Shown here piece by piece: positions 4,849-53,168 of a stretch of 64,000 bases of DNA. Both the position numbers and the translations under genes were made by a program. Within the stretch, counting starts at the first letter, position 1, and the number at the start of each line of letters is the position of its first letter. This DNA is from Pseudomonadota bacterium (GTDB taxonomy: Bacteria > Verrucomicrobiota > Verrucomicrobiia > Limisphaerales > SXTU01), in the NCBI GenBank assembly GCA_009924135.1, contig RFSE01000003.1, forward strand, positions 1 through 64,000, given 5' to 3'. The notes beneath the pieces are model-generated. The model was not told where the DNA came from, did not search any database, and worked only from the letters and a program-made list of their open reading frames with translations.

Positions 4849-5329
4849 GCCGCGAAAAGGCACAGAAGGCACAAAAAAGTGAACTTCATGAATGCACCCC
4901 TTACTGACACGGATGCCATCTTTCGTTTGTGCGACACGATTCGAGAAACCGGCTTCGCGATCCATCGCTTTCATCGTAACGGACACGTCGGGAAAATCTA
5001 CCAGAACGCGCTGCTTCACCGGCTGCGCAAGCAGGGTCTGGCAGTGGAAGCGGAGTTTCCGCTCACGGTCTTGGACGAAGATGGGACGGTGTTGGGTGAC
5101 TTTCGTGCCGACTTGTTCGTGGCTCAATCGTTGGTCGTGGAAGTGAAGGTCGTGAAACGTCTCGATGATGAGCACATCGCCCAACTCCTAGGCTACCTGC
5201 GCGCATCGCGCATCGAACATGGCCTGCTCATCAACTTCGGCGGGGGCAAATATGAAATCCGCAAATTTGTCCTGCAAGATGCCTTGAAAGGCTTTTAACC
5301 CTTTTGTGCATCTTGTGCTTTTTCGCGGC
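4849..5329. mobile_element. GxxExxY-gene cassette with inverted nonamer ends
   Basis: The left end (4849-4879) reads GCCGCGAAA, then units ending GGCAC repeated about every nine bases. The right end (5301-5329) is the imperfect reverse complement and ends CGCGGC. The single gene inside fills the space between. The cassette separates the metal-binding lipoprotein gene from cusA, which are normally adjacent in such operons, so it looks like an insertion. Mobility is inferred from structure. Confidence 0.55.
4879..5298 (+). CDS. GxxExxY-family protein, possible PD-(D/E)XK nuclease fold
   Basis: 139 residues from the GTG at 4879; an ATG at 4888 is an alternative. The protein matches the GxxExxY family layout: an N-terminal helix (RETGFAIHRFHRNG), the name-giving segment (GHVGKIYQNALLHRL), then DFRADLFVAQSLVVEVKVV, whose D-x(n)-E-x-K spacing is that of PD-(D/E)XK nucleases, and a final LLINFG strand. 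In the name-giving motif the usual Glu is Gly here (GHVGKIY), so this copy may be divergent or impaired. Biochemical function of the family is not established to my knowledge. Close inverted repeats on both sides suggest it travels as a cassette. It is co-oriented with, but not obviously part of, the efflux operon. Confidence 0.75.
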   Translation: MNFMNAPLTDTDAIFRLCDTIRETGFAIHRFHRNGHVGKIYQNALLHRLRKQGLAVEAEFPLTVLDEDGTVLGDFRADLFVAQSLVVEVKVVKRLDDEHIAQLLGYLRASRIEHGLLINFGGGKYEIRKFVLQDALKGF

Positions 5330-5346: not shown

Positions 5347-9258
<3,912 letters not shown>

Positions 9259-11908: not shown

Positions 11909-13228
11909 TCAGATCGCGAAGTCGTTGTACTCCGGCTTCACCAGCTCGGTGGGCGGGTAGAGCATGCCGGCGGCGACGGTTGCGTTGGTACCCTGCTCGA
12001 TGAGGATGAACGAGCCGGTGAGACGGTTGTTCCCGTAGCCGTCGAAGACGACGGGCTTGGCGGTGCGCAGACGGATTTCGCCGATGTCGTTCACCGCCAG
12101 TTCTGTCGGACCGGGCTCGGGGTCCAGGGTCTCGATGTTGATGCGCGTGTCGAGGTTCGTGACGATGGCCTGCACGGTCTGGGTGGCGTGTTTGAGGAAG
12201 TACTTGCGACCCGGTTGAAGCGGCCGGAGGTTCATCCAGCAGACGCGCCCGCGCAGTTCGTTGCTCATGCCGGGCAGGTGGTCCAGGCCCACGAGCATGT
12301 CGCCGCGGCTGATGTCGAGGTCGTGCTCAAGCACGAGCGTGACGGACTGCGGGCAGAAGGCTTCCTTGATGGAGCCGTCGAAGGTCCAGATGTCCTTCAC
12401 GGTGCTCTTCATGCCGCTGGGCAGGACCATGATTTTCTGGCCCACCTTGACAATGCCGCTGGCGATCTGGCCGCTGAGGCCGCGGAAGTCGTGGAGTTCC
12501 TTGTCAGTGGGATTGTTCGGCCGGTTCACCCATTGCACGGGGAAGCGCAGGCCGCTGAGGTTCCAGTCGCTGGCGATGTGGACGGTTTCCAAATGGCCGA
12601 GGAGCGTGGGACCGCAGTACCACGGCGTGTGCTGCGAGACGTCCACGACGTTGTCGCCGTTGAGCGCGCTCATGGGGATGAACTTCACGTCCTTGAACGC
12701 GTCGAGCTTGGGCAGGAAGCCCTCGATCTCGTCGCGGATCTCGGTGAAGCGGTCTTCGCTCCAATCCACGAGGTCCATCTTGTTCACCGCGATGACGAGA
12801 TGCGGAATGCCGAGCAATGCGGCGAGGTAGGTGTGGCGACGGGTCTGCTCGATGACGCCCTGGCGCGCGTCCACGAGGACGATGGAGAGGTTCGCGGTGC
12901 TCGCGCCGGTGACCATGTTGCGCGTGTACTGCACATGCCCCGGCGTGTCGGCCACGATGAACTTGCGGCGGGGCGTGGCAAAGTAACGGTAGGCCACGTC
13001 GATCGTGATGCCCTGCTCGCGCTCGGCGCGGAGGCCGTCGGTGAGGTTGGCGAGGTTGATCTGGCCGCCGCCGGTGATGTCGGCGGAGCGTTCGAGCGCC
13101 TCGAGCTGATCCTCCATGATGGACTTGGAGTCGTAGAGGAGCCGGCCGATGAGCGTGGACTTGCCGTCATCCACGGAGCCGCAGGTGTTGAAGCGGAGGA
13201 GTTCGATGGGGTGCTGGGTGTGGGGCAT
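11909..13228 (-). CDS. cysN: sulfate adenylyltransferase subunit 1 (GTPase)
   Basis: 439 residues. It is the GTP-hydrolysing partner of CysD; together they make adenosine 5'-phosphosulfate from ATP and sulfate. G-motifs are clear: P-loop GSVDDGKST near the N-terminus, the switch region with EREQGITIDVAYRYF, DTPGHVQYTRNM and NKMDLVD. EF-Tu-like barrels make up the rest. There is no APS-kinase domain fused at the end, so cysC must be elsewhere. In most genomes cysN follows cysD directly; here about 3.5 kb with a four-helix-bundle cassette and two secreted-protein genes intervene. A degenerate heptamer array lies just upstream of the start. Confidence 0.95.
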   Translation of the reverse strand: MPHTQHPIELLRFNTCGSVDDGKSTLIGRLLYDSKSIMEDQLEALERSADITGGGQINLANLTDGLRAEREQGITIDVAYRYFATPRRKFIVADTPGHVQYTRNMVTGASTANLSIVLVDARQGVIEQTRRHTYLAALLGIPHLVIAVNKMDLVDWSEDRFTEIRDEIEGFLPKLDAFKDVKFIPMSALNGDNVVDVSQHTPWYCGPTLLGHLETVHIASDWNLSGLRFPVQWVNRPNNPTDKELHDFRGLSGQIASGIVKVGQKIMVLPSGMKSTVKDIWTFDGSIKEAFCPQSVTLVLEHDLDISRGDMLVGLDHLPGMSNELRGRVCWMNLRPLQPGRKYFLKHATQTVQAIVTNLDTRINIETLDPEPGPTELAVNDIGEIRLRTAKPVVFDGYGNNRLTGSFILIEQGTNATVAAGMLYPPTELVKPEYNDFAI

Positions 13229-13235
13229 GGTAAAT

Positions 13236-13661
13236 GGAGGGGAGAAAGGAGCCGGCAGATGGGAGTCAGTATGCCGTTCGGGCGCGGGTGGAGCGGAGCA
13301 GGCCGCTGATGAGACGGCCGGTTTGGGAGATGAGGGTCAGGTGCTGCTGGTGTTCGACGGGTGAAAGGAATTCCACATCGAGCATGACGTACGAGAGGGA
13401 GAACACCTCGCCACAGGACGCACGGGCGACATTGTAGAACTGAAGCTTCTCCGCCGGGTGCAAGCGTTCGAAGCCTTCGGCATTGTTCGTCATGGCCGAG
13501 ACCGCGGCCCGCTGCGCTTGGTCCCGCAAGCCAAAATCCCTCGCTGCCGCGCCGCGCCGAAAGGTGTCATAAACAGAACGCACGAGTTCCCGTGCGCTTT
13601 TCCACGCTTCCAACTGCTCAAATGTCTCAATCTTGTCTGCCATCATCCAGCTCCCATCTCC
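13236..13661. mobile_element. heptamer-flanked four-helix-bundle cassette 1
   Basis: The right array 13634-13661 is four 7-bp units (TGTCTGC, CATCATC, CAGCTCC, CATCTCC) and runs through the start codon of the enclosed gene. The left array, about 13236-13270, is more degenerate (AGAAAGG, AGCCGGC, AGATGGG, AGTCAGT) and of opposite sense. The enclosed gene fills the space. Compare cassette 3 at 17713-18151 and the remnant at 16637-16769. Confidence 0.6.
13266..13643 (-). CDS. four-helix-bundle protein (S23/IVP family), copy 1
   Basis: 125 residues from the ATG at 13643; a Met one codon earlier and a longer start at 13673 are possible. The sequence MADKIETFEQLEAWKSAREL, then RDQAQRAAVSAMTNNAEGF and SCGEVFSLSYVMLDVEFLS, is that of the family first found in intervening sequences of 23S rRNA and related to Avd of diversity-generating retroelements. 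Family members form pentameric four-helix bundles and may bind nucleic acid; the exact role is unknown. The first codons lie inside a heptamer array. It is one of three related copies in this sulfur cluster and sits just upstream of cysN. Confidence 0.85.
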   Translation of the reverse strand: MADKIETFEQLEAWKSARELVRSVYDTFRRGAAARDFGLRDQAQRAAVSAMTNNAEGFERLHPAEKLQFYNVARASCGEVFSLSYVMLDVEFLSPVEHQQHLTLISQTGRLISGLLRSTRARTAY

Positions 13662-13839
13662 TAAATTTCCCACGCTTTCATGCGGTCTTCGGGCTGAATG
13701 CGCCGCGCTCGCCCTACTTTTTCCCAGTAGAGCGAATCGGCCAGAGGTTGGAACTCGCTGTTCACGTTACTGAGATAGCACGGCAGCGGAACGGTGGAAA
13801 GGGTGACGGCGCATGGAATTGGGCACCTCGGCGGTAAGC

Positions 13840-15162
13840 CTACCGGCCCGCTGGCAGCCGCCACCAGGCGGCCTCCACCCAGAAGAACTGCGAGTAGTAG
13901 AGTTTTGCGTAGTCGTAGTGGGCGATTACGCGCTCCACGGCGGCGATGCGTTCCTTCAAAATCGCCGCGTCCGGGGCCAGCGTGACGACCCAGGCCGCCG
14001 CCGTGGGTTCGCGCACGAATTCGGTCTCCCGGCCCCGCCGGGGCGCGACCTTGCGGAAGTTGCGCAACTGCACGAGCGCAAGCTCCTGGGCTTCCTGCTC
14101 TGTCTGCTGCGGCTTCCAATCGCTGTTCATCACGCGCCAGTTCATTTCAAAGCGGCTCATGTCGGCGTTATCGAACTTCTCCGCCATCGGCAGGCTCTTG
14201 AAGGCCAGGTCGGCACTGGCCTGGAGGCCCCGGGCGTAGGCGGTGCGGATGGTTCCGTCCTTTTCCAGCTCCCACAGTGCGCGCACGGCCCCGACACAGG
14301 TGCAGGAGGTCCAAGTGTGATACCGCGCGTACTCAAACACCATGCCATGCTCACAGACTTCGAGGCGCGTGCGGTTCTCCTTGCCGCCGCGCTCGGCCAG
14401 AGCCGTGCGGTAGAGCTGATCCCACTTCGCCTCACCCGTGACGGTGTGCAGGAGTTTGCCGACAAAAAGCAGGCGCGGCGCACTGTCGAACGAAAATCCC
14501 GCAAACGAACCGCGTTTGCCGAACGGGGCCTCGGCGGGCATGGCCCACTTCAACCGCACGATCTCCTCGGCGGTTTCGACCAGGTGGTTCGTGATCCGTT
14601 TGCGTTCGTCCGCCGTGGCCAGGCCCGAATCCAGGTAGCGCCACAGACCGAGAAACCACGGCAGGGTCTGATCGTTGGAGCCCATCGGGTAATGGGACTT
14701 CCCGTCGGTGCTTACGCCGCGCCCGACGAAGCCTTTCACCTCACTGATCGAATTGAGCAGGAGCAGGCCCTCCATCAACCGGCGTGCCTTCGCCGCGTCC
14801 GCGTCCGCCCGAGTGTGCCGCCAGCGGTTCACGGCGGCGTCCATGTACAGGCCGTTGAACATCGCGCCGTTCTCGATCGGTGCCCACCAGCCGAGCGCGT
14901 TCGGCTTGCCGGCGCGACACTCTTCCGGCGTCGGCAAACTCACCGCGCCCTCGAGGTCGGTGAAATCGATCATGATGCCGTGCGGGTCGATGAACCGTCG
15001 CCAGATTTCGGCGTGTGCCTGCCCGACGGCAATCGCGACCGTGCGTTCAGCGGCGGACCCCGGGGATAACCAAACGGCGTGGGTGGTTGCCGCCAACGAA
15101 GATACGAGGAACTGGCGCCGGGTTTGGCAGGGGAATTTGGGGCTATGGAATGGAGGCTTCAT
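13840..15162 (-). CDS. Tat-exported protein of unknown function
   Basis: 440 residues. The N-terminus has a twin-arginine signal: TRRQFLVSSLAATTHAVWL after a 13-residue leader whose PKFPCQ codons are spelled by a dispersed repeat (15124-15151). The mature part is rich in aromatic residues and helices (NGAMFNGLYMDAAVNRW, LWRYLDSGLATADERKR, YARYHTWTSCTCVGAVRAL), a pattern seen in alpha/alpha-barrel carbohydrate-active or heme proteins, but I do not recognise the family. It is oriented with, and placed inside, the sulfate-assimilation cluster next to a glycoside-hydrolase-like gene, so the two may form a pair. Export as a folded protein is inferred from the Tat motif. Confidence 0.75.
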   Translation of the reverse strand: MKPPFHSPKFPCQTRRQFLVSSLAATTHAVWLSPGSAAERTVAIAVGQAHAEIWRRFIDPHGIMIDFTDLEGAVSLPTPEECRAGKPNALGWWAPIENGAMFNGLYMDAAVNRWRHTRADADAAKARRLMEGLLLLNSISEVKGFVGRGVSTDGKSHYPMGSNDQTLPWFLGLWRYLDSGLATADERKRITNHLVETAEEIVRLKWAMPAEAPFGKRGSFAGFSFDSAPRLLFVGKLLHTVTGEAKWDQLYRTALAERGGKENRTRLEVCEHGMVFEYARYHTWTSCTCVGAVRALWELEKDGTIRTAYARGLQASADLAFKSLPMAEKFDNADMSRFEMNWRVMNSDWKPQQTEQEAQELALVQLRNFRKVAPRRGRETEFVREPTAAAWVVTLAPDAAILKERIAAVERVIAHYDYAKLYYSQFFWVEAAWWRLPAGR

Positions 15163-15236
15163 TTTATGGCCTTAATTCCTGTGCCAGCTTGGCGAAGCGT
15201 GGGTTGGCGGTGTCGGCGGACTTTCACATGTTTCCC

Positions 15237-16493
15237 TCAAGGTTTGAGCGCAGGCGGTTGCTCCGTGACGGGCAGCTCGCCGCGCAGCAGCCGGCCGCCG
15301 GCACCGGTGAGCCGCAGAAAGAAGTCGCTGGGCAGTCCATCAAAGGTGACAAACTTCGTGTCACCCGTGCTGGGCGCGTCATTCGTGCACTTGAAGATGG
15401 CCGTGCCTTCGTCCACTTCGTCGAACATCGCCACGTAGAGCATGCGCGCGTCAGCCCGTTTTGCGGCGACGAACTGCGACCAGAGGAACTCGCCCTTGCG
15501 ACGTGGAATGGCATCGAGCGCACCGCCGTGCATGTTGCGCCAACTGAAGCCGGGATAAACCACGGGGAGGTAATCAAGCTTGGCCGCCTTGCACCAGGCC
15601 ACATCCGGCTGGAGCCCTTTCTCGCCGTGGCGCGCGGCCTCCGCCGGGTCACGGTAACGGCCCACGGTCCACGGGCTGACGACATCGGCGAGCTTGAGGA
15701 GGTCATGCAACGCCGGGTCCTTGAGCGCATCGTTCTTCAATTCGCGCCAGTAGGTCGGGACGCCGAGCATCACCGAGCAGCCGTCACGTTTGAGAAACTC
15801 CACAAGCTGCCGGCACTCGGCGAGCGTGTACTTGCGGCCGTCGTTGAAGCCCACGCCCCACACGGCGACGAGCGGCTGGCCGCGATGCCGGAGGTAAGCA
15901 GTGCTGTCCGTCACGCGCAGGTTCTGGCGCAGCGCGCGCCAGTCATCCATCACCTGCTGGATGCGATTGGTGCCGAGGCCGCTGAGGTCATACATCACGG
16001 CAAAGGCGCGGCCGGACCGCTCCGCGCCGGCGCGGCAGTGGCCGAGCACGGTGTTGTTGTGCCGGAGCACCCGGGGATCACGCAGGTCCGCGACGAACCG
16101 CTGCACGAACGCCCCGTCGATCCCGTAATCGCTCATCCACTGGAAATGCCGCAAGACCGTGGCTTCCTTGAAGGAGCTGAACACCTCGGCGGTGCGGCCA
16201 TCGGCGTGCTTGAAGCCGGTGGCGAAACGTTCGTCCGCGCCGAGTTCGGAAACATCCGGCCAGACATCAATCTTCGCGTTGGCGGGGGCCAGTGCGCCCC
16301 GGCCCTTGGTCCAGTGCACCCAGCCGCGCTCGGCGCCGTCGGCCTCGCAGTTGAACCAGCCTTGATAGCCGCACATGACCTTGCCCGTGAGGGTGGAGGT
16401 GTCCACGCGCGAAGTGGCGGCGACCGATGCGAGCGGAGATATCAAACTCAACAGCGCGGCGATCAGGCTAAGGGGGGTGGCAATTTGCCCCAC
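15237..16493 (-). CDS. secreted glycoside hydrolase family 71/99-like protein
   Basis: About 418 residues from a GTG at 16493 that begins a hydrophobic leader (GQIATPLSLIAALLSLIS); no ATG lies near, and a Met at 16634 is another option, so the start is uncertain. The body begins VMCGYQGWFNCEADGAERGW, then VWPDVSELG, FVQRFVADLRD, AFAVMYDLSGLG and MLYVAMFDEVDEGTAIFK, which fits the GH71/GH99-like family (endo-mannanase or xylosidase-like barrels). Substrate cannot be told. Upstream lies the remnant of a four-helix-bundle cassette; downstream is the Tat-exported unknown. Both appear to have entered between cysD and cysN. Confidence 0.75.
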   Translation of the reverse strand: MGQIATPLSLIAALLSLISPLASVAATSRVDTSTLTGKVMCGYQGWFNCEADGAERGWVHWTKGRGALAPANAKIDVWPDVSELGADERFATGFKHADGRTAEVFSSFKEATVLRHFQWMSDYGIDGAFVQRFVADLRDPRVLRHNNTVLGHCRAGAERSGRAFAVMYDLSGLGTNRIQQVMDDWRALRQNLRVTDSTAYLRHRGQPLVAVWGVGFNDGRKYTLAECRQLVEFLKRDGCSVMLGVPTYWRELKNDALKDPALHDLLKLADVVSPWTVGRYRDPAEAARHGEKGLQPDVAWCKAAKLDYLPVVYPGFSWRNMHGGALDAIPRRKGEFLWSQFVAAKRADARMLYVAMFDEVDEGTAIFKCTNDAPSTGDTKFVTFDGLPSDFFLRLTGAGGRLLRGELPVTEQPPALKP

Positions 16494-16636
16494 CCCTTTG
16501 AGCCCGAACTCCGAAATGCAAATCAGTGAAGCAGCGGCTGGTGATGCGCCAGGAGCGCTGCGTTTACGCCGCAGAAAGCCTGGCTGGAAAAGGGCTGATC
16601 GAATGTCTCTCAACGACGAACGATTCTGCGGCATGA

Positions 16637-16751
16637 ATGCCGCGCTCCGCTCCGCCGGTCCGCGTCGGAACGCATCAGAAGCGAAGCTCACCAGTTCCCT
16701 GGCGCTCTTCCGTGCTGCCAACGGCTCGGCCGGCTCAATCCTGTCTCCCAT
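16637..16751 (-). pseudogene. four-helix-bundle (S23/IVP) gene remnant, copy 2
   Basis: The frame from 16751 reads MGDRIEPAEPLAARKSAREL then VSFASDAFRRG, clearly matching the first 37 residues of copy 1 (MADKIETFEQLEAWKSAREL). Similarity then ends and the reading frame passes into repeat-like sequence and on toward the glycoside-hydrolase gene. The four upstream heptamers (16742-16769) are preserved; the downstream array is lost. This is a decayed cassette. Confidence 0.75.
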
Positions 16752-16769
16752 CTTCCAGCTCCCATCTCC
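16742..16769. repeat. heptamer array of the decayed cassette
   Basis: Units TGTCTCC, CATCTTC, CAGCTCC, CATCTCC. The last three are nearly the same as those at 13641-13661 of cassette 1, so cassettes 1 and 2 are copies of one element. It abuts the cysD stop region. Confidence 0.85.
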
Positions 16770-17708
16770 TCAGAAATACCCCGCCTTCTTCCGGTCTTCC
16801 ATCGCGGCTTCGCTGGCCTTGTCATCGGCGCGGGTGCCGCGCTCGGTGACGCGCGCGGCGGCGACTTCGCGGATGATGTCGCTCACGGTGTCCGCCGGGC
16901 TCTCGATCATGCCGGTGCTGATCATGTCCGCGATGGTGCGCACGCGGCAGACCATGGACTTGATGGGTTCCTTCGCCGATGGACGGGCACCGGCATAGGG
17001 ATCGGGCTTCGTCGTGTCCGTGTGCGGGGGCGGGACGGGCAGCCACTGGCCGCCGCGCCGGAAGCACTCGCGCGTGTGGCTGAAGTAGATGTTCGGTACC
17101 TCGAGCTTCTCGCGCTGGATGTATTCCCACACGTCCATCTCGGTCCAGTTCGAGAGCGGGAAGACGCGCATGTTTTCGCCCTGGTTCAGGCGCGCGTTGT
17201 AGAGGTTCCAGATTTCGGGGCGCTGGTTCTTCGGGTCCCACTGGCCAAAAGCGTCGCGGAAGCTGAAGAAGCGTTCCTTGGCCCGGGCCTTTTCCTCGTC
17301 GCGCCGCGCGCCGCCGATGCAGCAGTCGAACCGGAACTCCTCGATCGCGCCGAGGAGCACGGGGATCTGGAGCTGGTTGCGGCTGATCTGGCCGGGCGTG
17401 GGCGTGGCGAGGCCCTTGGCGAAGGCCTCGTCCACGGTGCGAACGATGAGCTTCGCACCGAGCTGTTTGGCACGGCGGTCGCGGAACTCGATCAGCTCGG
17501 GAAACTCGTGCCCGGTCTCGACGTTCAGGAAGGGCATGGGAATTTCCGCCGGGCGGAAGGCCTTCTCGGCGAGGCGCAGGATGCAGATGGAATCCTTGCC
17601 GCCGGAGAAGAGGATCGCCGGCCGCTCAAACTCGGCCGCGACCTCGCGCATGATGTGAATCGCTTCGGTTTCCAAATACTGCAAATGGTCCAGATGATAG
17701 GATGACAT
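16770..17708 (-). CDS. cysD: sulfate adenylyltransferase subunit 2
   Basis: 312 residues, close to the usual 302. The start MSSYHLDHLQYLETEAIHI at 17708 matches known CysD N-termini; the frame continues upstream only through repeat-encoded residues. The PP-loop SGGKDSICILRLAEKAF binds ATP. The R-rich segment RDEEKARAKERFFSFRD and the ending KAGYF are family hallmarks. With CysN it activates sulfate to APS. The ATG directly follows a heptamer array (17713-17740) with no good Shine-Dalgarno sequence, so insertion of the four-helix-bundle cassette has replaced the native leader. Confidence 0.95.
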   Translation of the reverse strand: MSSYHLDHLQYLETEAIHIMREVAAEFERPAILFSGGKDSICILRLAEKAFRPAEIPMPFLNVETGHEFPELIEFRDRRAKQLGAKLIVRTVDEAFAKGLATPTPGQISRNQLQIPVLLGAIEEFRFDCCIGGARRDEEKARAKERFFSFRDAFGQWDPKNQRPEIWNLYNARLNQGENMRVFPLSNWTEMDVWEYIQREKLEVPNIYFSHTRECFRRGGQWLPVPPPHTDTTKPDPYAGARPSAKEPIKSMVCRVRTIADMISTGMIESPADTVSDIIREVAAARVTERGTRADDKASEAAMEDRKKAGYF

Positions 17709-17712
17709 GGGA

Positions 17713-18151
17713 GGGAATGGGGAATGGGGAATAGGGAATGGGGCTTCGGTTAGCGCCGGTCTATGGAATGGATGAGGCCGGTGATGAGTTTGCCGGTTTG
17801 TTTGCAATGAGTGAGCAGATCGGGTTGTTCGCTTGCGGTGATGAATTGATTGTCGAGCATCACGTAGGTCATGGAGCGGACTTCGCCGCAGGATCGGCGG
17901 GCGTAGTTGTAGGCTTGTTTCTTTTCAGCGAGATGGATGGTTTCCCAACCTTCGGCCAGGTTGTTCATCACCGAAACGGCAGCACGGCGTAACTGGTCAC
18001 ACAGGCCAAAGTCGCGTGAAAGCGGCTCGCGGCGGCAAAGGGCGTAAACCCTCTGCGTCAGCACGCGGGCACCCTTCCAAGCTTCCGTGTCTTCAAATGT
18101 CTGTGGCGTGACCATCAACACCCTATTTCCCATTCCCCATCACCTATTACC
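17713..18151. mobile_element. heptamer-flanked four-helix-bundle cassette 3
   Basis: The left array 17713-17740 is GGGAATG, GGGAATG, GGGAATA, GGGAATG. The right array 18117-18151 is AACACCC, TATTTCC, CATTCCC, CATCACC, TATTACC, i.e. the reverse-complement type. Between them lies one four-helix-bundle gene. The cassette sits exactly between cysH and cysD, and its right array spells the last codons and stop of cysH. The best-preserved full cassette in the window. Confidence 0.65.
17750..18115 (-). CDS. four-helix-bundle protein (S23/IVP family), copy 3
   Basis: 121 residues from the ATG at 18115; an ATG at 18133 would add six repeat-encoded residues. Family motifs: TFEDTEAWKGARVLTQRVY, DQLRRAAVSVMNNLAEGW, YARRSCGEVRSMTYVMLDNQ. 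Only about half the residues match copy 1, so this is an independent lineage rather than a recent local duplicate. It is enclosed by inverted heptamer arrays and lies between cysH and cysD, whose products have no known link to it. Role unknown; nucleic-acid binding is inferred from the family. Confidence 0.85.
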   Translation of the reverse strand: MVTPQTFEDTEAWKGARVLTQRVYALCRREPLSRDFGLCDQLRRAAVSVMNNLAEGWETIHLAEKKQAYNYARRSCGEVRSMTYVMLDNQFITASEQPDLLTHCKQTGKLITGLIHSIDRR

Positions 18152-18808
18152 TTCAACGGCCTTCCCGCCCCACGCCGCGTGCAGGCCGCATTCGCGTTTT
18201 TCGTCGGCTTTCGCGGGGTCGAAGTAATCCCACTCGTTCGGGAGGTTGTGCTGCTGGAGGTAGGCTTCCATCTCGGCGTCGGACCAGTGGAAGACGGGGC
18301 TGACCTTGAGGGAGTTGAAGTTGCCGTCGGGCGAAACGATGTCCAGACCGGCGCGGTTGGGGTTTTGGACCTTGCGCAAGGCGGTGAGCCAGACGGTGGG
18401 GGCGAGCTCCTTCATGCCGCGCTGGAAGGGCTCGAGCTTCATCACGGTGCTGAAGGCCTTGATGCGCTCCTCGTTCTCCGGCGTCGGCTCGGGCATGCCG
18501 CCGTGGACGGCGTCGTAATGCGCGGCGGTGAGCTTGGGGAGGTAGGCCTTGAGGTTCAGTTTGAGCTGGGCTTTGAGCGCCTCGGCATGGAGGTAGGTGG
18601 CGGGGCGGTTGTAGCCGTGGTCCACCCAGAGCACCGGGATGTCCGGCTGCACCTGCGTGACGAGATGCAGGATGACGGCTTCGTAGGGCCGGTAGTTCGT
18701 AGAGACGATGGCCCGGCCCCCGGCCTGCGCGATGGCCCAACGCACGACTTCGAGGGCGGACTTGCCGCGCAGGTCGGCGTTGATATGAGCGATTTGTTCA
18801 GCGGTCAT
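18140..18808 (-). CDS. cysH: phosphoadenylyl-sulfate reductase
   Basis: 222 residues. It reduces activated sulfate to sulfite with thioredoxin. Visible motifs: STNYRPYEAVILHLVTQ (PP-loop region), LWVDHGYNRPATYLHAEAL, and the catalytic C-terminal KRECGLHAAW with the nucleophile Cys. The paired cysteines that ligate a 4Fe-4S cluster in APS reductases are absent, so PAPS is the likely substrate, which requires an APS kinase not present in this window. The final codons and stop lie in the heptamer array of cassette 3. It heads the reductive part of the sulfate cluster. Confidence 0.9.
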   Translation of the reverse strand: MTAEQIAHINADLRGKSALEVVRWAIAQAGGRAIVSTNYRPYEAVILHLVTQVQPDIPVLWVDHGYNRPATYLHAEALKAQLKLNLKAYLPKLTAAHYDAVHGGMPEPTPENEERIKAFSTVMKLEPFQRGMKELAPTVWLTALRKVQNPNRAGLDIVSPDGNFNSLKVSPVFHWSDAEMEAYLQQHNLPNEWDYFDPAKADEKRECGLHAAWGGKAVEGNR

Positions 18809-49489: not shown

Positions 49490-52400
49490 TCAATCCACAA
49501 ACGCTGCCTCGTTCGAGACGAGCAGGATGTGCGCGAGCTTTTCCCACGGCGTCAGATTCTTCAGGGACTCGTTGCTCTGGCGGGTGAAGTCCGCCTTGGC
49601 GTCCCACGCGGTTTCGTAGCCGGGCGGGAGCTGCTTGGAGCGCTTCACTCCGTCGGTGAGCTTGAGCTTGGGGGCCCAGTTGAAGCTGTCGCTGTTGTCA
49701 TCCGCGCGGCACTCGACGACGAAGTCCAGCGTGTCGCCGGCTTGCACCGCAAGGTCGGCGGCCTTGAGTTCCGCCGAACCGCTTTTCGCCGTCGCCTCGC
49801 CCACGAGCCCGGTGCGGCTGCTGACGATGCGCGCCAGCACGCCGTCGCCTTCCTTGGCCGGATGCGTGACTGTGCCCGATACCGACACGGTACCATCGCG
49901 CGGGGCGACCCAGCGGCGGATGGCCGCATGCGCGACGTCCCGTCCCGGATGACCGCCTTCCGCGCGGATCAGGACATGGCCCAACTGCTTGTCCGGGAAA
50001 TCACGACCCACCTGCCACTGGCCGCCGGTGAAGAAGGCAAACGGCGTAAAACTCTTCACGCGCTTCGTGGCGGGGTCGAACTCGCCGTAGCCATAATGCC
50101 AGCCGCTGTTCGGCGCGGACTCGTCCAGGCCCTCGCTGGGCGCGGCGAGAAAGGCCTTCGCCATCGTGACTTCGTCCGCTGCGGGACGCCGTTGGTAAAT
50201 CGTCTCGTAGAGGAAGCGGATGCGGGCTTCGTCGTTGGTGAACTTCTTAAAGTCATCGCGCCCAGCAAGCGCCTGCGCCTGCTGGAGGACGAACGGCGCG
50301 TTCAACATGAAGAGCGCCTGCTGCGGCACGGTGGTGAGGAAGCGCTGCGACGCGCTCACATCGGGACTTGCGAAGTCAAACGTGCGGAACATCGCCGGGA
50401 GGTTTTGCCGGTCGATGTAACCATACACCGTGCGCCGACCGCTGAACGGCTGCGCCGTGAGTTCCACGGGCAGGCCGCCGGTGGCGAGGTCGAGCTTGCC
50501 GGACGCGAGCAACAGTGAATCACGGAACTGCTCGAAGTCGAAGCGTTGGCGGTTGAACTTCCAGAGCTGCGTGTTCGCCGGGTCCGCCTTCACGCACTCG
50601 GCGCGGTCATCGCTCGCCTGCTGGTAGGTGGCGGAAAGCATGATCAGCCGATGAAGGGTCTTGATACTCCAGGGTTTGACGGAAGACGGCTCCCCCCTGG
50701 ACGCCAGACCCAAGACCCCATCCCCGCGCACGAAGTGCGCCGCCAGCCAGTCGAGCAGCTCGGGGTGCGTGGGTGGGTCGGTGCGGACGCCGAAGTCGCT
50801 CGGAGTACGGACGAGGCCCGCGCCGAAGTGCCAGGCCCAGACACGGTTCACGATCACGCGGGCGGTGAGCGGGTTGTCCTTGTTCGCGATGGCCCGGGCC
50901 ATTTCGAGCCGGCCGCTGGACTTCGCCGGGAACGGTTCGGTCTTGGTGAGCGAGGCGACCTGCAGGAACGCGCGGTCCACCTCGGGGCCGTGATTGGCGG
51001 GGTTGCCGCGCAGAAACACATACGGGCGCGTGGGCGCATCGCGGTCCACCAGGGCCATCGCGCGGGGCGGCGCGCCGGGATGCGTGGCGTCCACTTCATC
51101 CACTTTGGCTTTGAGCTGGCGCAGGCGCGGGCGGGCGTCCTCGAGCAACGTGTCGTTCTCGGGCGCAGGCAGGTTCGGCGCGGCGTCCGGAGCGCGCAGG
51201 GCGAGGCGCAGGACCTCCTTCTCCTTGTCCGCGTGCGGCGTGGCGGCGTCGGCGTCAGTGAGCAGCTTGCCGTAACGCTCCGCGACTTCCTTGATGGTCT
51301 TGGGCGGCGTCTTGAACGCGGCGGCCACGGCGGGGTGGGTGCCGGCTGGGACAGATACTTTCACCGCTTCGTCGGCGAACTTGTCGTCCGGCAACTTCGC
51401 GTACGTGTTCCAGAGCGACCAGACCGGGTCAGGCGTGGCGGACTTGGTAGTCTTGCTGAGATAGTCCTGCCAACGGCTCACCACCGCCGGGACGAGCTTG
51501 CGCTCTTGGAAATACTTGTCCCGGTTCTGCCGCGTCGCCGTGGCGGAGGCGCGGGCCACCTTCGGGTCCACTTCGTCGGCGGCGAGCAGGTAATCGGCGG
51601 TGCGCTTGCGCAGGATGGCGAACTGCTTGTCGAGCTGTTCGACGCGGTGCTGCTCCAGTTCGGCCTCGCGCTTCTTTTTCTCCACGAGATAGGCCGCGTG
51701 CTGCACCGCATCAGGTTGCAGACCGAGCAAGGGCTTCTCCGCCGGCTCCTGGCTGGAGGCGAAGACGCCGTAGAGCCCGTAATACTCGCGGGTAGAGACC
51801 GGGTCGTATTTGTGGTCGTGGCAGCGGGCGCACTGGGCCGTCAGCCCCATCGTGCCGCGCGTCACCACGTCGATGCGGTCGTCGATGATGTCGGCGGTGT
51901 TGTTTAGGAAGCGGCGGCCAAGTGTGAGAAAACCGAGGGCGGCGAGGGAGTCCTGATGAGGTTCAAGGGTGGAGGTTTCAGGTTTCAAGCTGGCCTGGCC
52001 GGTTGCACTCGAACCACCGGCACCAACTTTGAACTTTGAACTTTGAACTTTGGACTCTTCCAAAACCCGGTCCGCTGCAATTTGTTCGATAAGGAACCGG
52101 TCGTACGGCGTGTCGTGGTTGAAGCTGTTGATGACGTAGTCGCGGTAGGTGTAGCTGAAGGCGAAGCGCCGTTGCTCGTCGCCGGCGAGGTAGCCCTTCG
52201 TGTCGGCGTAACGCGCGACATCGAGCCAGTGCCGGCCCCAGCGTTCACCGTAACGCGGCGAGGCGAGCAGGCGGTCAACGAGACTGGCGGTGGCCGTTTG
52301 GCGATTGCCGGTCTGGCACGCCCGCTCGAACGCCTCGACCTCGGCCATCGACGGCGGGAGGCCGTGGAGGTCGAGTGTCATGCGGCGGATGAGCGTACGT

Positions 52401-53044
52401 GGATCAGCGGGCGGGGAGAGGGTCCAGCCTTTGGGGGCGAGCTTGGCTAAAACGAACGCGTCGATGGGAGAGTATTCAGTTTTCAGTGCGTCAGTATTCA
52501 GTGGCTTCGCCTTGCCGGGAGCGCTCTTGGCTGAGGACTGATTGCTGAACACTGAATACTGAATACTTGGAACTTTGGGCTCCTTCACCGGCTGAAACGC
52601 CCAGTGGTTCTTCACCACGGTCGGATCGGAGAGCGGCGGGCCGGAGGGCTTGCCGGTGCGGGGGTCGGGCGCGCCCATGCGGACCCATTCTTCGAAGAGG
52701 GCGATCTGGGCGGCGGAGAGTTTCTTCCCCTTGGGCGGCATCTCCAGGTCCTTCTCCGTATAACGGATGGACCGGATGAGCAGGGACTTGTCGGGGTCGC
52801 CGGGGACGATGGCGGGGCCGTGCTCGCCGCCCTTGCTCCAGCCGTCGCGGGTGTTGAGTGCAAGGCCGCCCTTGGGTTTGTCCGGCGCACTGCCGTCGTG
52901 GCACTTGAGGCACTGCTCGATGAGCAGCGGGCGGATCTTGTTCTCGAAGAAGTCGTGGCCGGCCGCGGCATCGGCCGCGTGCGCCCGGAGGGCAAACACG
53001 CCGGCGAGCAGGGCGAGACGAAGGGGGGAAGTCGGGTGGTTCAT
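49490..53044 (-). CDS. PSCyt1-DUF1549-DUF1553 (PSD1) protein with in-frame repeat insertions
   Basis: 1184 residues, secreted (MNHPTSPLRLALLAGVFALR). The N-terminal Planctomycete-type cytochrome has the haem motif CLKCHDG and distal Met region DLEMPPKGKKLSAAQ. DUF1549 follows (ERWGRHWLDVARYADTKGY; TAQCARCHDHKYDP gives a second CxxCH). DUF1553 (NPLTARVIVNRVWAWHFGAG, FGVRTDPPTHPELLDWLAAH, RRTVYGYIDRQNLPAMFRTF) and a C-terminal jelly-roll-like part complete it. Such proteins are abundant in Planctomycetes and Verrucomicrobia and are thought to act in polymer breakdown. Two segments, SIQYSVFSNQSS ... LNTDALKTEYS and SKVQSSKFKV ... LKPETSTLEP, are spelled by heptamer elements. The usual DUF1501 partner gene is absent. 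Confidence 0.9.
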   Translation of the reverse strand: MNHPTSPLRLALLAGVFALRAHAADAAAGHDFFENKIRPLLIEQCLKCHDGSAPDKPKGGLALNTRDGWSKGGEHGPAIVPGDPDKSLLIRSIRYTEKDLEMPPKGKKLSAAQIALFEEWVRMGAPDPRTGKPSGPPLSDPTVVKNHWAFQPVKEPKVPSIQYSVFSNQSSAKSAPGKAKPLNTDALKTEYSPIDAFVLAKLAPKGWTLSPPADPRTLIRRMTLDLHGLPPSMAEVEAFERACQTGNRQTATASLVDRLLASPRYGERWGRHWLDVARYADTKGYLAGDEQRRFAFSYTYRDYVINSFNHDTPYDRFLIEQIAADRVLEESKVQSSKFKVGAGGSSATGQASLKPETSTLEPHQDSLAALGFLTLGRRFLNNTADIIDDRIDVVTRGTMGLTAQCARCHDHKYDPVSTREYYGLYGVFASSQEPAEKPLLGLQPDAVQHAAYLVEKKKREAELEQHRVEQLDKQFAILRKRTADYLLAADEVDPKVARASATATRQNRDKYFQERKLVPAVVSRWQDYLSKTTKSATPDPVWSLWNTYAKLPDDKFADEAVKVSVPAGTHPAVAAAFKTPPKTIKEVAERYGKLLTDADAATPHADKEKEVLRLALRAPDAAPNLPAPENDTLLEDARPRLRQLKAKVDEVDATHPGAPPRAMALVDRDAPTRPYVFLRGNPANHGPEVDRAFLQVASLTKTEPFPAKSSGRLEMARAIANKDNPLTARVIVNRVWAWHFGAGLVRTPSDFGVRTDPPTHPELLDWLAAHFVRGDGVLGLASRGEPSSVKPWSIKTLHRLIMLSATYQQASDDRAECVKADPANTQLWKFNRQRFDFEQFRDSLLLASGKLDLATGGLPVELTAQPFSGRRTVYGYIDRQNLPAMFRTFDFASPDVSASQRFLTTVPQQALFMLNAPFVLQQAQALAGRDDFKKFTNDEARIRFLYETIYQRRPAADEVTMAKAFLAAPSEGLDESAPNSGWHYGYGEFDPATKRVKSFTPFAFFTGGQWQVGRDFPDKQLGHVLIRAEGGHPGRDVAHAAIRRWVAPRDGTVSVSGTVTHPAKEGDGVLARIVSSRTGLVGEATAKSGSAELKAADLAVQAGDTLDFVVECRADDNSDSFNWAPKLKLTDGVKRSKQLPPGYETAWDAKADFTRQSNESLKNLTPWEKLAHILLVSNEAAFVD
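51960..52052. repeat. inverted heptamer element inside the PSD1 gene, AACTTTG type
   Basis: Left arm 51960-51987: GGTTCAA, GGGTGGA, GGTTTCA, GGTTTCA. Right arm 52025-52052: four perfect AACTTTG units. The core is 37 bp. In the gene frame it encodes SKVQSSKFKVGAGG and SLKPETSTLEP between IEQIAADRVLEE and DSLAALGFLTLG, where the family has a short variable loop. Confidence 0.88.
52471..52564. repeat. inverted heptamer element inside the PSD1 gene, AGTATTC type
   Basis: Left arm 52471-52499: AGTATTC, AGTTTTC, octamer AGTGCGTC, AGTATTC. Right arm 52537-52564: ACTGATT, GCTGAAC, ACTGAAT, ACTGAAT. The core is 37 bp. In gene orientation the arms encode QYSVFSNQSS and LNTDALKTEYS, matching the element at 6686-6892 in cusA in sequence, frame and octamer position. 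Confidence 0.9.
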
Positions 53045-53064
53045 GGCCTGGAGGGCGGCGGATT

Positions 53065-53161
53065 AGTAATCAGTGTTCAGTATTCAGTGTTCAGTGATGG
53101 GTGGTCGGGTTGATCAGGGCCGGTCAGCGACAAACTGAACACTGAATACTGAATACTGAAC
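53065..53161. repeat. inverted heptamer element between PSD1 and rsmI
   Basis: Left arm 53065-53092: AGTAATC, AGTGTTC, AGTATTC, AGTGTTC. Right arm 53134-53161: ACTGAAC, ACTGAAT, ACTGAAT, ACTGAAC. The core is 41 bp. An intergenic, near-perfect inverted copy of the same family as the in-gene elements, without the octamer. Confidence 0.92.
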
Positions 53162-53168
53162 ACTTCAG

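Follow-up and report, generated by a model that had tools for sequence, protein, structure and literature searches.

Several described systems come close to the element that is the subject of this work. The intervening sequences (IVS) of 23S rRNA in Leptospira and Coxiella carry a gene for a four-helix-bundle protein, S23, in a loop closed by an inverted-repeat stem of ~28-33 bp. In Coxiella the IVS is 444 nt long, has a 28-bp terminal stem and an S23 open reading frame (ORF), is cut by RNase III, and has tandem GACAGAT heptamers in its 5' arm just before the S23 start codon; the S23 protein of Xanthomonas forms a homopentameric torus (PMC4990558). Here we describe S23 genes between inverted arrays of 7-nt repeats (the arms) in a sulfate-assimilation operon. 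They lie in a stretch of 64,000 nucleotides, called the window below, that makes up positions 1 to 64,000 of contig RFSE01000003.1 (assembly GCA_009924135.1, order Limisphaerales). These cassettes are probably copies of a compact transposable element that has the arms as its ends.

The cassettes share with the IVS the S23 ORF in a loop and the complementary terminal sequences that form a stem, and their median length is 484, in comparison to the 444 nt of the IVS. The original prediction, made from the DNA letters alone, took the heptamer arms as the equivalent of the IVS stem, and the Coxiella arrangement agrees well with this. No 23S signature was found in any fetched locus. Unlike the IVS, the cassettes stand in mRNA operons, plasmids and CRISPR, sulfate and conjugation loci and not in rRNA helices, their arms are heptamer arrays of a modal size with many alternative units, and they have empty sites with 5-bp target duplications. 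Strictly speaking, the window cassettes are no IVS; they are the same design at other locations.

Other repeat families show a partial likeness. Repetitive extragenic palindromic (REP) sequences and bacterial interspersed mosaic elements (BIME) with a REP-associated tyrosine transposase (RAYT, TnpA-REP) also have one small gene enclosed by inverted palindromes, and the genome contains numerous palindromes that lack a gene. Unlike RAYT, S23 is no Y1 tyrosine transposase, the ends are tandem heptamers, and the gene-less copies do not match the resident gene; no Y1 HUH transposase was found in the cassette, where Pfam gives PF05635 only. The heptamer repeats of cyanobacteria and Xanthomonas (short tandemly repeated repetitive sequences, STRR; GGGNATC, Rehm et al. 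2015; TAACTGA, MacGregor 2015) have the same preference for about four units and many inverted pairs, but were previously without a gene partner and were explained by quadruplexes or regulation, whereas the repeats described here are tied to S23 cassettes. Rickettsial palindromic elements and miniature inverted-repeat transposable elements (MITE) likewise occur as gene-less hairpins, in frame in coding regions or between genes, but the arms described here are built of heptamers and are exchanged in place between species.

The AlphaFold (AF2) model of the S23 protein of one window cassette (cassette 3 below) is a four-helix bundle with a predicted local distance difference test (pLDDT) score of 89.7, and it matches 2gsc, 2rld and Avd (4dwl/8ub7). 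The entries 2gsc and 2rld have five chains each. Avd of the diversity-generating retroelements (DGR) has the same fold (TM-score 0.83-0.86 to 4dwl/8ub7) and belongs to a nucleic-acid-binding pentamer family, but the sequence identity to S23 is 6-8%. In the annotated plasmid neighbourhoods of S23 we found neither a reverse transcriptase nor a template or variable repeat.

Inverted arms around S23 genes and mobility of the unit

The arms were scored as the best alignment between the 260 bp upstream of a gene and the reverse complement of the 260 bp downstream, with a cut-off of at least 15. S23 genes were found in 32 of the 40 related genomes searched. Inverted arms at this score were found around 74% of 103 S23 (PF05635) genes from the window's order as compared to 1.3% of 233 control genes, and of the three control hits one was itself an S23 gene and another a GxxExxY gene, a family described below. 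Arms with swapped partners reached the cut-off in 1.75% only, and the pairing is thus locus-specific. In a cross-phylum set, which was found with a narrow S23 alignment and represents one S23 subfamily, 69% of 80 further loci were armed in comparison to 2% of shifted controls. These loci come from cyanobacteria, Nitrospirae, Acidobacteria, Planctomycetes, Bacteroidetes, Chloroflexi, Deltaproteobacteria, Armatimonadetes, Gracilibacteria and others, at least a dozen phyla. The predicted enrichment of flanking heptamer arrays around this gene family was thereby decisively confirmed.

The 5' arm was purine-rich on the gene strand in 81-98% of the loci, and in the cross-phylum subfamily it was nearly always the AG-rich strand (AGGAGTC, AGAAGTC, GGAGTTA). 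Arm similarity follows protein identity across the phyla on the same strand and not on the opposite strand (Mantel p.001), showing that arms and S23 protein are co-inherited. S23 proteins of different phyla are 60-75% identical, which points to horizontal transfer. Cassettes are carried on conjugative plasmids, and no S23 match was found in 50,697 phage records, which leaves phage vectors without support. Three S23 loci of other phyla (L221, L238, L260) have in-frame stop codons or frame breaks and are probably decayed copies.

Filled and empty versions of the same site were found on plasmids of rep_cluster_1671. A cassette lies between two genes upstream of trbI/virB10 in Trichormus (L330) and Scytonema (L342), and the site is empty in Aulosira, Nostoc linckia, Microchaete and N. 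carneum (L338/L339/L340/L347), with about 97% identity to the filled one. The empty site reads AAAGTTAAAAAGTAATTAACAAATAAATAT; the filled site reads AAAGTTAAAAAGTAAT, then 423 bp running from AAATCAGAATTCAG to GAGTTCTTCTTT, then GTAATTAAC. The 423-bp insertion is flanked by two exact copies of GTAAT, a 5-bp target duplication, and the mobile unit is therefore exactly arm-gene-arm. A second insertion, of 413 bp between two copies of TTCTA, distinguishes the Nostoc plasmids pNsp_a (L333, filled) and pNsp_c (L352, empty); here the duplication is imperfect, with one base missing on the right. As neither arm is present at the near-identical empty sites, gene and arms must have arrived together, and the duplicated target bases adjoin the arms on their outer side.

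Intermediate states were also observed. At the rep_cluster_1671 site Brasilonema has a gene-less hairpin of the same arm type and Nostoc C052 a decayed copy, and at the seventh site compared the filled, decayed and empty states were all found. Among the further filled and empty pairs is the cassette between cas10 and cmr3 in Picosynechococcus 7003 as compared to 7002. In the verrucomicrobial loci L004 and L081 gene and arms are common and the flanks unrelated, with homology stopping at the arms. The cassettes thus show two properties of transposable elements, a whole unit that is absent from an orthologous empty site and, at two sites, short direct duplications at both ends. No encoded or linked recombinase or transposase was found: there is no recombinase within the unit, and S23 is the sole gene between the arms.

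Cassettes of the window and structure of the arms

A sulfate-assimilation cluster on the minus strand spans 11.9-18.8 kb of the window according to its Pfam domains, and the gene names cysN, cysD and cysH are our reading of the domain matches. The features of the cluster are the following:

11909-13228, minus strand: GTP_EFTU-type (CysN-like) gene, by Pfam
13241-13271, minus strand: 3' arm of cassette 1, degenerate heptamers, plus strand GGAGAAA GGAGCCG GCAGATG GGAGTCA GTA, overlapping the S23 stop codon
13266-13643, minus strand: S23/IVP (intervening sequence protein) gene of cassette 1, PF05635 and TIGR02436
13638-13663, minus strand: 5' arm of cassette 1, degenerate, GGAGATG GGAGCTG GATGATG GC
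16637-16751, minus strand: remnant (5' part) of an S23 gene, cassette 2, in a segmental duplication that includes a second copy of the cysD 3' end
About 16744-16769, minus strand: array of cassette 2 (heptamers), immediately following the stop codon of cysD
16770-17708, minus strand: CysD-like PAPS_reduct gene (start codon 17706-17708), by Pfam
17713-17743, minus strand: 3' arm (in gene sense) of cassette 3, a 31-nt array, plus strand GGG-AATG-GGG-AATG-GGG-AATA-GGG-AATG-GGG, that is GGGAATGGGGAATGGGGAATAGGGAATGGGG
17750-18115, minus strand: S23/IVP gene of cassette 3, PF05635 and TIGR02436; the open frame runs on to 18133
18121-18151, minus strand: 5' arm (in gene sense) of cassette 3, 31 nt, GGT-AATA-GGT-GATG-GGG-AATG-GGA-AATA-GGG, on the gene strand GGTAATAGGTGATGGGGAATGGGAAATAGGG
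18140-18808, minus strand: CysH-like PAPS_reduct gene, by Pfam

Both intact small genes belong to the S23/IVP family, as had been proposed, with matches above the curated cut-off to PF05635 (E 9e-23 and 1e-26) and TIGR02436. The cluster had been predicted to hold three heptamer-packaged cassettes, and cassette 3 is a textbook case. It is placed between cysH and cysD, and each of its arms consists of five GGN trimers and four 4-nt spacers. The arms are complementary at 24 of 31 positions, which is equalled at 1 of 63,000 window positions with equal spacing. The 3' arm stops a few bases short of the cysD start codon, and the cysH stop codon falls within the 5' arm. The arms of cassette 1 are recognisable and degenerate, with a score of 10.5 that is not significant alone (6% of control genes reach 12). 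Cassette 2 is a fragment: its alignment with cassette 1 (13445-13690 vs 16560-16799, 67% identity) continues into the cysD 3' end, which indicates a segmental duplication around a 3-kb insert. Cassettes 1 and 2, which had been taken as copies, are therefore one cassette and a duplicated fragment carrying the cysD tail, not two independent packages. An intact relative lies directly after cysD in G002 (L112/L130). The protein of cassette 3, which had been thought only distantly related, is 52% identical to that of cassette 1 and so not very distant. In the window genome there are 16 PF05635 matches, nearly all with inverted arms, and each gene has its own unit, e.g. GTCCAAA, GGTTTCA, GTTGATA, TGAAAAG, ATTTACG or CCGATTG.

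The period of 7 is specific. The match at lag 7 was.456 (control DNA:.239), and echoes of it appeared at lags 14 and 21; 38 period-7 arrays were found in 427 kb of the window genome as compared to 0 in shuffled DNA, the other periods between 5 and 13 giving 0-6. A length of 30-33 nt was found in 55 of 120 distinct arrays, in comparison to 15 near 24 and 8 near 38. The modal length of 31 nt equals five trimers 7 nt apart (5x3 + 4x4 = 31), and within the 31-mers identity is.96-1.0 at the internal trimer phases as compared to.69-.88 at the spacer phases. The size of 30-33 nt was also found in 78 of 157 arrays that are unable to form G-quadruplexes, and the published quadruplex explanation of the four-unit preference (PMC4692102) is therefore not general. 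Variant units follow mirror-image orders in the two arms, to a degree that the shared consensus does not account for (p 5e-9 and 6e-5). One S23 locus (L051) has arrays of 113, 222 and 240 bp and is an exception to the fixed array size.

Where the neighbours on both sides are co-oriented, S23 has the same direction in 43 cases and the opposite direction in 4 (p 3e-9). The arms lie a few bases from the stop and start codons of the neighbours, and the median distance from arm to S23 start codon is 7 nt. This leaves no room for a promoter of its own and suggests that S23 is expressed by read-through. At the cysH-cysD site the ratio of nonsynonymous to synonymous substitutions (dN/dS) of S23 is about.12; here the S23 protein is under purifying selection and the arms are remodelled. 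Since dS of S23 exceeds that of cysD only by a factor of about two, the gene has probably been inherited mostly vertically at this site while the arms changed, and replacement by unrelated elements is disfavoured.

Two S23 cassettes were found within CRISPR operons, one between cas10 and cmr3 (L332) and one between cas6 and cas4 (L335). The 23S rRNA IVP is listed by FLSHclust among CRISPR-linked proteins (PMC10910872), and insertion of cassettes between cas genes offers a simple reason for that association.

Proposed mechanism and alternative explanations

The proposed transposable element would be ~415-485 bp long and would consist of an array of ~4.4 heptamers (modal 31 nt), the S23 gene and the inverse complement of the array. 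Its S23 protein, predicted to be a toroidal homopentamer related to Avd, would recognise the array as a nucleic-acid strand with one trimer core per subunit, and would hold the hairpin or its ends for transposition. As S23 has no recognised catalytic site, strand breakage and joining would have to be supplied by a trans-acting enzyme. Expression would ride on the host operon, which would explain the orientation bias. The 23S rRNA IVS would be the same element landed in a transcribed rRNA helix, and gene-less hairpins and solo arrays would be deletion or non-autonomous derivatives. The protein TRAP binds triplets around its ring, and TRAP-like binding of one array trimer per subunit of the S23 pentamer would be an attractive model.

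If this is true, the heptamer repeats of cyanobacteria, Xanthomonas, Beggiatoaceae and others, on record without explanation since at least 2007, would gain a partner gene and a mobility mechanism. The 23S rRNA IVS would then be one of the places where a mobile element spread across phyla has inserted, and no longer an rRNA curiosity, and five repeats per pentamer is a sharp structural prediction. We found no publication linking heptamer arrays to S23 genes genome-wide in a search with subscription literature outside its scope, and the novelty is accordingly provisional. A wider reading, which we put forward tentatively and regard as rather unlikely, takes the heptamer repeats of many phyla as landing marks of one element superclass without a recognised transposase, the ends of which would be counted by ring proteins. 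The S23 pentamer would wrap one 31-nt strand, the nuclease-like GxxExxY would have convergent ends, host or trans machinery and 5-bp duplications would be shared, and the 23S IVS would be a special case.

Several observations weigh against the cassettes being copies of a transposable element. Target duplications were resolved at two sites only, one of them short a base and both on cyanobacterial plasmids outside the window's lineage, and at sites 2, 3, 4, 6 and 7 the flanks were too diverged or altered for exact duplications to be resolved. No cutting or joining enzyme was identified. The sequences of the arms change or are exchanged at a fixed position, and transposition alone does not account for this. 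The modal length is found in only about half of the arrays, some of which have 20 or more units (L051), and in Bacteroidetes the repeat spacing is 8-10 and not 7. The cysH-cysD copy and that of L003/L037/L042/L066/L049 stay at one place across the genus, and such long persistence, with purifying selection on the cysH-cysD copy, need not be expected of a purely selfish element. Furthermore, gene-less arrays are no closer to the arms of resident S23 genes than to those of S23 genes in other genomes (0.408 vs 0.420 +/- 0.039). Mobility of the unit itself is supported, but the suggestion that the protein also serves the spread of the gene-less hairpins is not: their mobilisation in trans by resident S23 genes was rejected, as there was no excess similarity.

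Among the alternatives, a module acting at the RNA level survives best. The stem formed by the arms in the operon transcript would be cut by RNase III, freeing the S23 mRNA and making the insertion harmless, and by binding to it S23 may be autoregulatory. We regard this as possible but less likely than not. The cleavage of IVS stems by RNase III (PMC4990558), the codirectional insertion in operons, the mirrored unit order and the purine-rich 5' arm are all in line with it. However, the arm mismatches showed no sense-strand excess of G-U over A-C (125 vs 130, p.8), which would be expected under selection for an RNA stem; this is weak evidence, as tandem repeats make the register of the alignment ambiguous. 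Many solo arrays have no partner arm, and empty sites with duplicated targets are not accounted for by the RNA module alone. The module would fit as a second function of the transposable element.

It is unlikely that the S23 genes are passengers that were inserted into the loops of pre-existing heptamer hairpins belonging to an independent host repeat class. Gene-less hairpins and solo arrays do far outnumber S23 genes, as judged genome-wide from the 427-kb sample and one pattern search, their units do not match those of the resident S23, and a GxxExxY element is found at the same cysH-cysD site. On the other hand, near-identical empty sites have no arms, the arms track protein relatedness, and the target duplications are at the arms' outer ends.

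We likewise give little weight to a domesticated operon regulator, in which arm-bound S23 would govern how the flanking operon is translated or how stable it is, and would be kept for the host. The long persistence at cysH-cysD with its low dN/dS would suit such a role, as would the conserved flanks at a second site in several species of the genus and the arms abutting the start codons of neighbours. But S23 presence or absence at one site differs between close species, a GxxExxY element replaces S23 in G002 and G017, and the genes on either side have no common function (sulfate, CRISPR, conjugation).

That ordinary microsatellites or G-quadruplex repeats adjoin S23 by chance is highly improbable: heptamer repeats are abundant in some bacteria and have been explained by four-tract G-quadruplexes (PMC4692102), but controls and swapped partners reached 1-2% only, the array size holds among the 157 non-quadruplex arrays, and the unit order is mirrored.

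Gene-less arrays and a second packaged gene family

The original prediction also placed gene-less elements elsewhere in the window, and two such hairpins were found, together with solo arrays and one gene of another packaged family:

4879-5298, plus strand: GxxExxY gene (PF13366/TIGR04256) between inverted short-repeat arms, arm score 18
5824-5854: solo array of AACTCTC units, 31 bp, lying in frame within an AcrB/CusA-type gene (5347-9258); other units are found there in related species
6688-6904: CAGTNTT hairpin slot in the same AcrB/CusA-type gene
52025-52056: solo heptamer array (AACTTTG), from the array scan
52471-52567: gene-less hairpin of AGTNTTC heptamers, in frame in a PSCyt1/PSCyt2/PSD1 protein gene (49490-53044)
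53062-53164: gene-less hairpin of AGTNTTC heptamers, intergenic

In other species of the genus the slot at 52471-52567 holds solo 31-32-bp arrays or hairpins of other units, and over the alignable species it has solo arrays of four units and two hairpin types. Three hairpin types were found among ten species of the genus in the slot at 6688-6904, with both arms switched together. At these slots and at 5824-5854 the heptamers of related species are wholly different, and the reading frame is kept. The CAGTNTT pattern gave 158 matches in comparison to 4 for the reversed pattern, and the polarity of the CAGTNTT hairpins was identical in 11 of 11, with unrelated loops. The AcrB/CusA-type gene also holds interspersed repeats at 7421-7574 (~150 bp, palindromic) and 6772-6828 (~50 bp), which have many copies in genomes of the genus. 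In L027 two in-frame GTCGAGA heptamer hairpins (6595-6670 and about 7000-7070) lie in one coding gene, which from its translation looks to us like a U32 peptidase and recalls the Rickettsia palindromic elements.

Inverted arms were also found around 26 of 30 GxxExxY genes (PF13366, PD-(D/E)XK superfamily; L180-L209), and these arms consist mostly of about three CACGGAT-like repeats 9-11 nt apart. In G002 and G017 the GxxExxY gene sits in the cysH-cysD site that is used by the S23 cassette elsewhere. Arrays of the TTCGTGTCCATTCGTGTCCATTCGTGG type, with a period of about 10 nt, were observed at this junction, upstream of cysD, in G002, G006, G019 and G027 (L130, L134, L138, L140). They resemble the GxxExxY arms and in some of these genomes stand without the gene.

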